NCBI RefSeq assembly: GCF_016858125.1
Contig: NZ_CP064781.1
Location: 1,302,001 to 1,366,000, forward strand
Direction: 5' to 3'
Origin: Azospira restricta
GTDB lineage: Bacteria; Pseudomonadota; Gammaproteobacteria; Burkholderiales; Rhodocyclaceae
DNA length: 64,000 bases
The notes under the pieces were generated by a model. That model was not told the origin of the DNA. It made no database searches and saw nothing but the letters and a program-made list of their open reading frames with translations. The first letter of the stretch is position 1, and each line of letters opens with the position of its first letter. A program made the translations under genes and the position numbers. This document shows, piece by piece, positions 57,131-59,534 of this stretch.

Positions 57131-58345
57131 ATGGACCCGAAACCGATCTACCTCGACAACAACGCGACGACGCGCGTCGACCCGGCGGTGGTGGCGGCGA
57201 TGCTGCCCTTCTTCACCGAGCACTTCGGCAACGCCTCGTCGATGCACGCCTTCGGCGCCAGCGTCGGCCGGGCGCTGAAGCAGGCGCGCGGCCAGGTGCA
57301 GGCGCTGCTCGGCGCCGAGCACGATTCCGAGATCATCTTCACCTCCTGCGGCACCGAGGCCGACTCGACCGCGATCCTGTCGGCGCTGAAGGCGCAGCCG
57401 GAGCGCAACACGGTGATCACCACCGCCGTCGAGCACCCGGCGATCCTCAGCCTGTGCGAGTGGCTGGAGAAGGAGGGCTACGTCGTGCACAAGCTGCGCG
57501 TGGACAAGAAGGGCCGCCTCGACCTCGACGAGTACCGCGCGCTGCTGCACGACCGCGTCGCGATCGTCTCGGCGATGTGGGCGAACAACGAGACCGGGAC
57601 GATCTTCCCGGTCGCGGAGATGGCCGAGATCGCCGCCGCCCGCGGCATCATGTTCCACACCGACGCGGTGCAGGCGGTGGGCAAGATCCCGCTCGACCTG
57701 AAGAAGACGAAGATCGACATGCTCTCGCTGTCCGGCCACAAGCTGCATGCGCCGAAGGGGATCGGCGTGCTCTACCTGCGCCGAGGCTGCCGCTTCCGGC
57801 CGCTCTTGCGCGGCGGCCACCAGGAGCGCGGGCGGCGCGCCGGTACCGAGAACTCGGCGGCGATCGTCGGCCTCGGCCAGGCCTGCGCGCTGGCACAGGC
57901 GCATCTGGTGACCGAGGACACCGTCGTGCGGCGGCTGCGCGACCGGCTGGAAGCCGGCATCCTGGCCCGCGTCAGCCATGCCTTTCCGACCGGCGACCCC
58001 GACAACCGTCTGCCCAACACCAGCAACATCGCCTTCGAATACATCGAGGGCGAGGCCATCCTGCTGCTGCTCAACAAGCTCGGCATCGCCGCCAGCTCGG
58101 GCTCGGCCTGCACCTCGGGCTCGCTCGAGCCGTCGCACGTGATGCGCGCGATGGGCATTCCCTACACCGCGGCGCACGGCACGGTCCGCTTCTCGCTGTC
58201 GCGCGATACCAGCGAAGCCGAGATCGACCGCGTCATCGCCGCGGTGCCGCCGATCATCGAGCGCCTGCGCAAGCTCTCGCCGTACTGGAACGGCGAGGGG
58301 CCGGCGGCGGCGCCGGAGCAGGCCTTCGCCCCGAGCTACGCCTGA
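57131..58345 (+). CDS. nifS: NifS, cysteine desulfurase
   Basis: 404 aa class I (NifS/IscS) desulfurase. PLP Lys204 in SGHKLHAPKG, His102 in EHPAIL, and active-site Cys327 in SSGSACTSGSLEPSHV. Supplies sulfur to NifU. 9 bp after nifU. Its TGA stop is the first triplet of the downstream hairpin array. Confidence 0.97.
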   Translation: MDPKPIYLDNNATTRVDPAVVAAMLPFFTEHFGNASSMHAFGASVGRALKQARGQVQALLGAEHDSEIIFTSCGTEADSTAILSALKAQPERNTVITTAVEHPAILSLCEWLEKEGYVVHKLRVDKKGRLDLDEYRALLHDRVAIVSAMWANNETGTIFPVAEMAEIAAARGIMFHTDAVQAVGKIPLDLKKTKIDMLSLSGHKLHAPKGIGVLYLRRGCRFRPLLRGGHQERGRRAGTENSAAIVGLGQACALAQAHLVTEDTVVRRLRDRLEAGILARVSHAFPTGDPDNRLPNTSNIAFEYIEGEAILLLLNKLGIAASSGSACTSGSLEPSHVMRAMGIPYTAAHGTVRFSLSRDTSEAEIDRVIAAVPPIIERLRKLSPYWNGEGPAAAPEQAFAPSYA

Positions 58346-58509
58346 GCGATACGCTTTGCGTATCGCGAAGAAGTACTCCTGGGGTACGCTTGAGCAAGTG
58401 CGAAAGCACTTGCGAAGAAGCCCCCTCGGGGGGCGCCTGAGCGCGATGTGCACCGCACGTCGCGAAGATGTCCCCGCGGGGGCGCGTAAGGCGCGCGGCG
58501 TTACGCGCC
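58343..58509 (+). repeat. tandem array of ~48-bp two-hairpin units after nifS
   Basis: TGAGC starts units at 58343, 58391 and 58438. Each has stem 1 (GATACGC/GCGTATC; AAGTGC/GCACTT; GCGATGTGC/GCACGTCGC), then GCGAAGAAG or GCGAAGATG, then stem 2 (GTACTCC/GGGGTAC; GCCCCC/GGGGGC; GTCCCC/GGGGGC). Stem sequences differ but stay complementary. A last 9-bp stem GGCGCGTAA/TTACGCGCC closes the array. Confidence 0.85.
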
Positions 58510-58545
58510 AGGTTTCCCGTTACCTCTCCAGCAGTACCTTCGGAA

Positions 58546-58573
58546 CCCCCGGCCTTCGCGCCGGGGTCTTTTT
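58546..58573 (+). terminator. Rho-independent terminator of nifUS operon
   Basis: CCCCGGC (58547-58553) pairs GCCGGGG (58560-58566), loop CTTCGC, followed by TCTTTTT. The hairpin array lies between nifS and this terminator, so it is transcribed. Confidence 0.88.
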
Positions 58574-59089: not shown

Positions 59090-59118
59090 TTGAAATCCGG
59101 AAAGTCCGCCCCTATTAT
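59090..59118 (+). promoter_or_regulatory. sigma-70 promoter of groESL
   Basis: TTGAAA (59090-59095), 17-bp spacer, TATTAT (59113-59118). The -10 box overlaps the CIRCE element by one base. Confidence 0.88.
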
Positions 59119-59144
59119 TAGCACTCGTTGGCAATGAGTGCTAA
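59118..59144. promoter_or_regulatory. CIRCE element (HrcA operator)
   Basis: Perfect TTAGCACTC-N9-GAGTGCTAA, the HrcA binding site controlling heat-shock chaperonins. Confidence 0.97.
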
Positions 59145-59243: not shown

Positions 59244-59534
59244 ATGAAAATCCGTCCGTTGCACGACCGTGTGATCGTCAAGCGCGTTGAGGCCGAGCGC
59301 ACCACCGCCTCCGGCATCGTGATCCCCGACACCGCCGGCGAGAAGCCGGATCAGGGCGAAGTCCTGGCCGTCGGCCCGGGCAAGCGCGACGACAACGGCA
59401 AGCACATCGCCGTCGACCTGAAGGTCGGCGACCGCGTGCTGTTCGGCAAGTACGCCGGCCAGACGGTCAAGGTCGATGGCCAGGAAGTCCTGGTCATGCG
59501 TGAAGAAGACATCATGGGCGTGCTCGAGTCGTAA
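59244..59534 (+). CDS. groES: co-chaperonin GroES
   Basis: 96 aa. [14 protein letters not shown] start, mobile loop [20 protein letters not shown] (~17-36) and roof region; full length. Caps GroEL. Leader of ~100 nt follows the CIRCE; RBS AAGGAGA. Operon groES-groEL under HrcA. Confidence 0.98.

Follow-up and report, generated by a model that had tools for sequence, protein, structure and literature searches.

A two-hairpin repeat seated on the stop codons of nifS and other genes of Azospira restricta, probably spread by insertion

The tandem array that follows nifS in Azospira restricta begins on the stop codon of the gene and repeats that stop codon from unit to unit. We think it probable that the array represents three copies of a dispersed two-hairpin repeat with a core of about 41 bp, which is likely to have spread by insertion at C-TGA stop codons, most likely duplicating four coding bases together with the TGA, and one of whose hairpins is predicted to lie directly against the terminating ribosome. 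Units sit on the TGA stops of dozens of genes and usually end with the last bases of the gene and its stop, so that the element likely jumps into stop codons and leaves the genes intact. This position on the nifS stop codon, and the repetition of the stop, are the main finding here and were absent from the first-pass annotation of this DNA, which had described tandem two-hairpin units of about 48 bp behind nifS.

The DNA analysed (the window) is a stretch of 64,000 nucleotides, and nifS, the array and the hairpins behind it lie on its forward strand. The nifS open reading frame occupies 57131..58345 and is identified as NifS by TIGR03402 (635 bits against a cut-off of 531). Its stop codon, the TGA at 58343-58345, is the first triplet of the array and, together with the last four coding bases (CGCC), forms the left copy of a direct repeat at 58339..58345, as read from the sequence and from the direct-repeat test given below. 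Units start with the TGA at 58343, 58391 and 58438 (spacing 48 and 47 bp), and each is predicted to fold into two hairpins. The core of unit 1 covers 41 bp (58346..58386; 78.6 bits with R1, a covariance model built from 26 copies), and the predicted fold places its stem 1 at 58346-58354/58358-58366 and its stem 2 at 58373-58378/58382-58387. The second copy of the direct repeat, CGCTTGA (58387..58393), leads into the 40-bp core of unit 2 (58394..58433; 61.9 bits), and the third, CGCCTGA (58434..58440), into the core of unit 3 (58441..58482; 28.7 bits), these cores too being delimited by the fold. The units share the layout TGAGC - stem 1 - GCGAAGA(A/T)G - stem 2, so that a unit runs from TGA into a stem-loop that starts at about the next base, then GCGAAGA(A/T)G, a second stem-loop, CGCC or a variant, and the next TGA. 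This agrees with the earlier account of three units in one frame, save that unit 3 is degenerate (GCGAAGATG): its stem 1 is displaced by two bases, and the terminal copy of the direct repeat has decayed to CGCGTAA (58483..58489), with TAA in place of TGA (58487-58489). Beyond it, an inverted-repeat scan finds an extra inverted repeat at 58481..58509 that is not a unit; the array had been drawn as 58343..58509, an extent that holds for the three units and not for this last hairpin. A terminator-like hairpin followed by TCTTTTT (58547..58566) stands 3' of the array, so the array itself is not the terminator. Its former placing between nifS and the terminator is accordingly right on the downstream side and has to be amended upstream, where the first TGA is the nifS stop itself. 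A repeat protein is ruled out, as had been argued before, because unit spacings of 45-50 bp occur and units end in TGA.

The repeat forms a family dispersed over the whole genome. With a simple sequence pattern, 37 matches were obtained in the A. restricta genome (G000, 3.98 Mb) and one with the reversed control; some few of these 37 are clearly chance matches in coding DNA. R1 gave 118 matches at E<=1, from which we kept the 106 of at least 23.3 bits (nine of the 12 dropped were 21-base matches to one palindrome). These 106 matches fall into 69 clusters, 42 with a single hit, 18 double, eight triple and one quadruple, and R1 misses some diverged units within arrays. Recurrence at 69 places takes the nifS array beyond chance and answers the earlier concern that the array might exist only here, with stems due to chance pairing. 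The idea of an element specific to the 3' UTR of nif genes falls, since the units occur throughout the genome and the host genes are varied. Among 48 unit pairs within arrays three are identical, and local tandem duplication adds to array growth. Under stricter filters, the copy numbers of the seven genomes of the genus are 101 in G000, 63 in G002, 49 in G003, 6 in G004, 5 in G005, 1 in G006 and 0 in G001. Outside the genus, three of 34 genomes had one weak R1 match each. A draw of 121 genomes from the family gave, at E<=1e-6, 42 matches in G000, 41 in G003, one in each of two other-genus genomes and none in the rest. No Rfam family reached its gathering score; the four matches returned had E values of up to 5, none of them near that score. 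The own-genome clusters are unevenly spread in 250-kb bins, with 6 and 6 in the first two bins, 7 in the last, and three bins of one cluster each between 0.75 and 1.5 Mb. Some units (L283 and L287 in G003; L103 and L139 in the own genome) are of a longer variant, with an extra CGAAGGGGCCTATGGCTC between GCGAAG and stem 2.

Contact with stop codons is the rule across the family. Judged against genes called by a simple finder that had been trained on the window, 57 of the 69 clusters begin with a TGA that terminates a predicted gene on the same strand. The other 12 comprise six clusters that have no TGA at their start, three that end open frames of 234, 501 and 701 codons which the gene finder had not called, and three misfits: a strong copy at 126352 (78.2 bits) away from any predicted stop, a cluster at 2392486 where the predicted gene ends four bases further on in another frame, and one at 2629601 where the array seems to begin further upstream. 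Stops that overlap elements read C-TGA in 63 of 66 cases, compared with 141 of the 319 other stops in the same loci. The host genes that could be named are nifS, trhP, flgA, a relA/spoT homologue, actP, a hydrogenase large-subunit homologue and dnaJ; we saw no functional theme among nifS and the nine further host genes queried, three of which had no family. At one locus (L088, own genome 192433) the first TGA reads CGA, and the gene prediction extends across the unit to the repeated TGA that closes it, as though this second stop were a backup.

The alternative that survives best is that insertion is not aimed at stops, any C-TGA being struck and selection sparing only the copies at gene ends. 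We hold this to be a serious possibility, though one we lean against. In the own-genome loci fetched, the motif SSNCTGA occurs outside elements at 90 predicted stops, at 61 intergenic sites and at 736 coding sites; the coding sites are thus common, insertions into them would mostly be lost, as is to be expected, and sites near promoters may be selected against. Yet the intergenic sites are nearly as common as the stops, and 57 of the 63 clusters that bear a TGA lie at predicted stops (p 5e-8 against the 90:61 available, if intergenic insertions are neutral). This intergenic shortage suggests a preference for stops, to which selection against sites near promoters may also contribute.

The units are flanked by direct repeats of about 7 bp (NNNNTGA) that are specific to the gene, the usual end of a unit being a second copy of the gene end and its stop. 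In the test for this, the bases before the gene's TGA were compared with those before the next TGA wherever exactly one TGA lay 38-54 bases downstream, which admitted 47 of the 69 own loci (22 could not enter). Matches at positions -1 to -4 numbered 45, 44, 47 and 41, against 43.1, 33.7, 33.4 and 27.5 in shuffled pairings, and position -5 gave 19 against 13.0. Arrays of the related genomes behave similarly, with 34, 34, 34 and 33 matches at -1 to -4 against 32.1, 25.3, 25.5 and 25.3, and 22 against 15.5 at -5, in the 34 kept from 55 arrays (55 loci) after dropping five without a TGA, three with an open frame below 100 codons, nine duplicates and four without exactly one TGA. The two sets are not independent, because some of the related loci are orthologous to own loci. 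Because the majority of genes end in GCC-TGA, chance would account for a large share of these matches, and it is the unusual gene ends (GCAC, GCCC, CGAC, GACC and CGTC) that provide the signal. We infer that a staggered cut at the target gave rise to the direct repeats as target-site duplications.

What insertion adds can be read from filled and empty sites in related genomes. Orthologues of 21 filled own genes were sought in G001, G002, G003 and G006 with the C-terminal segments as queries, and their ends were fetched and read. Units were present at 15 of 70 orthologue ends and absent from 55; the filled ends were 8 of 19 in G003, 7 of 18 in G002, 0 of 16 in G006 and 0 of 17 in G001. Filled status was read by eye, and R1 finds units at the gene end in the same 15 loci; its other matches in this set lie elsewhere (L280 with 44.3 bits, and L261 and L275, both weak) or are opposite-strand self-matches. 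All five genomes share the gene end CGTC-TGA at 375207, and only the own genome and G003 have the unit and a second (C/T)GTCTGA. At 765175 the empty G003 orthologue reads GCCGAC-TGA-AGGAGAACCGGAATG, and the filled own site GCCGAC-TGA, the unit, CGACTGA and then CGGAGAATGCGATG. At 3230570 the G003 gene, 100% identical over the protein segment compared, has no unit, and the flank follows without a break. Only four loci had downstream DNA that could be aligned; this DNA resumes at the second TGA in three of them (765175, 3230570 and 1205629, to within a one-base indel in the flank), and at 2140410 the flank of the empty orthologue resumes eleven bases off. An insertion that duplicated about NNNNTGA would explain these junctions, as tandem duplication alone would not: the latter is rejected as the sole origin because single-unit loci have gene-end bases on both sides and empty orthologues are without the unit. 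Among the three natures proposed by the first-pass annotation, a mobile REP-like element is therefore the one favoured, by the dispersed copies, the filled and empty orthologues and the gene-specific direct repeats. Filled sites shared with G003 and G002 (15 of 37 ends) indicate that many insertions are old. The stem 1 sequences of the filled orthologues at 2445158 in G000, G002 and G003 are entirely different, so that either sites are struck again or stems turn over fast.

The same orthologues bear on a second reading, in which the unit is a functional 3' UTR structure, an mRNA element similar to REPs or to the RTSs placed just after stop codons (PMC7518266), selected at gene ends and inherited vertically, contact with the stop being required and mobility incidental or ancient. 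We judge this unlikely. It would accommodate the stem covariation described below, the 15 of 37 ends filled in both the own genome and G003 or G002, and a stem 1 that starts directly past the UGA. However, none of the 33 ends in G001 and G006 is filled, the named host genes have no functional theme, and the gene-specific repeats imply insertion.

The unit fold itself appears to be under constraint. Units 1, 2 and 3 of the nifS array have predicted energies of -19.9, -26.9 and -25.5 kcal/mol (z-scores -3.5, -4.3 and -2.1), and none of 200 shuffles folds as well as 58337-58520 taken whole (z -6.1). The covariance-model check proposed in the first-pass annotation, which had taken compensatory stem changes as a sign of selection on a fold, found strong stem covariation as well as units elsewhere in the genome. 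Of the pair cells in the 26 model-building sequences, 95.6% are standard, with both-side changes in 6 of 15 pairs; in 78 copies aligned to the model, an alignment fitted to the structure and hence biased towards it, 93.4% pair and both-side changes occur in 11 of 15 pairs (8 of the 9 in stem 1). The covariation score over the 78 copies was reached by none of 500 shuffles, and slid partners were only 24-55% paired. These data support constraint on the fold, through selection or through correction of one arm from the other. In quasi-palindrome correction one hairpin arm serves as the template for the other, and because such correction in DNA could yield a similar pattern, covariation alone is no proof of a role as RNA. 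That the compensatory changes arose in this way, in place of selection on folded RNA or single-stranded DNA, seems to us doubtful: the wholly different stem 1 sequences at 2445158 are as correction would allow, but stem 2 also covaries, with many G-U states which correction would erase, the loops stay short and GCGAAGAAG is conserved.

None of the four mobility-enzyme families searched could be matched to the repeat. No Y1 (RAYT) transposase was found in G000, G001, G002 or G003, so the RAYT-like gene that the first-pass annotation suggested looking for is not present in the own genome. Y1 genes occur in 15 of the 24 genome records searched, including G004-G006 and several distant genomes that bear the core. 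From the 46 Y1 matches listed, a few of which are duplicates, 18 distinct loci were examined; none of these has a unit next to it, and they gave two weak R1 matches only (E 0.04 and 0.25). Reverse transcriptase genes number two in G001 and three in G003, and DDE_Tnp_1 genes one in G001, two in G003, one in G005 and three in G006, with none of either in the others, the own genome included; the sole IS110-type match (PF02371) in the seven same-genus genomes lies at 1712953-1713201 of the own genome. All three are rejected as the mobiliser, since their counts do not follow the number of units per genome. In G002, where 63 units occur, Y1, reverse transcriptase, DDE_Tnp_1 and IS110 are all missing from an assembly that is 90% complete in 260 contigs. 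No core match was found in phage records and viral contigs, and among plasmids one record matched, from Ilyobacter polytropus, at four places; in the stretch read, these copies are intergenic and away from gene stops.

The least probable of the alternatives, in our estimation, is RAYT-type (HUH, Y1) single-strand peel-and-paste insertion 3' of CTGA, as in IS200/IS605 elements and REPs, in which CTGA at both ends would be the target plus the right cleavage site of the element and the transposase would have been lost from the high-copy genomes. Stem 1 and its feet (GAGC-stem-GCGAAG) do resemble Pseudomonas REPs in the account of PMC2817692, TnpAREP is described as cleaving single-stranded DNA at CT (PMC8266576), and distant genomes with 40 and 23 core copies carry Y1 genes. 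This reading leaves the three gene-copied bases before C-TGA unexplained; IS200/IS605 elements, as treated in PMC2817692, make no larger target-site duplications; and it faces the want of Y1 genes in the three high-copy members of the genus and of units at the Y1 loci.

Likenesses to known systems are several and partial. REPs and REPINs are short dispersed palindromes of high copy number with tandem arrays, and the present family, with its 106 matches at 69 places and two covarying stems, is likewise a short palindromic repeat in many copies. Its GAGC-stem-GCGAA core resembles that of Pseudomonas REPs (as given in PMC2817692), compensatory stem changes are also reported for REPINs (in the portion of PMC3116915 consulted), and contact with gene ends recalls the GTAG REPs, which often supply a TAG stop according to the text we drew on in PMC3733652. 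Unlike REPs, the unit consensus has CTGA before stem 1 and no GTAG; there are two hairpins per unit and a repeat of about 7 bp that includes the stop codon; Y1 genes are missing from G000, G002 and G003, the genomes rich in copies, and the 18 Y1 loci examined in other genomes have no copy beside them. Unlike BIMEs and REPINs it forms no inverted doublets: the strong matches of one cluster lie on one strand, and opposite-strand matches at the same place are weak palindrome self-matches (18-22 bits). The gene-specific direct repeats also depart from the logic of IS200/IS605. As in MITEs, the units are small, gene-free, dispersed and flanked by direct repeats that read as target-site duplications; they differ in being far shorter, in having one orientation relative to genes, and in the lack of terminal inverted repeats (start GCGATGCGC against the reverse complement of the end, CACCCCG, in the consensus by eye). 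With RTSs the unit shares a stable structure directly 3' of the stop, in its case a predicted one; the excerpt of PMC7518266 that we used does not describe them as one repeat family, and here there are dispersion, a conserved sequence and a repeated stop. The TAACTGA repeats of Beggiatoaceae are dispersed in tandem, contain TGA and can overlap stops, but in the portion of PMC4679880 available to us they are simple 7-bp units that mostly face downstream start codons, with no two-hairpin unit. Searches of the open-licence literature gave no match to the core sequence and no published description of this family. We call the family a new variant of the REP-like kind, outside any named family. Tentatively, and with rather less than even confidence, it may be a new class of miniature mobile DNA: a two-hairpin element of about 41 bp without terminal inverted repeats that seeks the C-TGA stops of genes and duplicates the stop so that the host gene survives, with a mover outside Y1, reverse transcriptase, DDE_Tnp_1 and IS110 and with relatives across several phyla.

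In the scheme that we prefer, the repeat would insert at the C-TGA stop codon of a host gene, moved by a putative trans-acting enzyme, and a staggered cut would duplicate the last four coding bases and the TGA. Arrays would then have grown by re-insertion into the repeated site as well as by local tandem duplication. The hairpin may alter how translation of the host gene terminates or re-initiates, or how its mRNA is turned over. Ribosomes in E. coli are reported to stall at REPs that lie within 15 nt of a stop codon (cited in PMC12306157), and in the synthetic operon of PMC7518266 re-initiation is governed by structures placed immediately 3' of the stops. Stem 1 of nifS units 1 and 2 begins, in the predicted fold, 0 nt past the UGA, and a similar effect on the terminating ribosome is predicted by analogy with this REP and RTS literature. 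Over the 40 nt past the stop, predicted energies average -15.6 kcal/mol at filled stops and -12.5 at the others, so that the fold at filled stops is only moderately stronger; 30% of the unfilled stops reach the filled median, and in energy the filled ones do not stand out. The family bears on the way in which small bacterial repeats select targets and on the reasons for the presence of REP-like elements at gene ends, and the repeated stop codon suggests how an element may occupy a gene end harmlessly. Natural pairs of orthologues with and without a hairpin that abuts the stop would also make effects on termination, re-initiation and mRNA decay measurable. The core is seen in several phyla and the high-copy genomes lack a known mobiliser, which points towards an enzyme that awaits discovery.

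A search of 84,980 species genomes with a 25-base pattern for the core turned up 90 stretches, of which 80 were listed by name. Among the matches listed, records outside the genus that hold units with TGAGC or a close variant upstream, often in tandem, come from Clostridia, Sulfurimonas, Helicobacteraceae, Deltaproteobacteria/Thermodesulfobacteriota, Ca. Tharpella, Gammaproteobacteria and Bacteroidetes, phylum assignments that rest on record names, in which MAG names and binning can be wrong; others of the 90 stretches are chance or unrelated. Thirteen such genomes, chosen for having a match, contain 1-40 copies at up to three mismatches (reversed control 0). In these records the TGA mostly ends open frames of 2-63 codons and so marks no clear gene stop; longer frames precede it in CTSoil_124 (656, 117 and 101 codons), in a Bacteroidetes MAG (272) and at one further locus (126). 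The core GCGAGGAAGTACTCTTGGGGTGCGC occurs in records from Fusobacteria (the plasmid, L254), Clostridia, Campylobacterota, Gammaproteobacteria, Bacteroidetes and of Desulfobacterota type (L152, L157, L159, L162, L166, L172, L195, L212, L147 and others; genomes G041-G053), and in these relatives stem 1 is much shorter, the units are 35-36 bp long and most lie off gene stops. In CTSoil_124 (L145/L341) five tandem units with a spacing of 35 bp and a minimal stem 1 stand behind a long open frame, of 656 codons in L145, whose end reads CCC-TGA. Finally, downstream of the nifS array, the window contains at 59118-59144, upstream of a groES-like open reading frame at 59244, the motif TTAGCACTC-N9-GAGTGCTAA, which we take to be a CIRCE-type HrcA operator.
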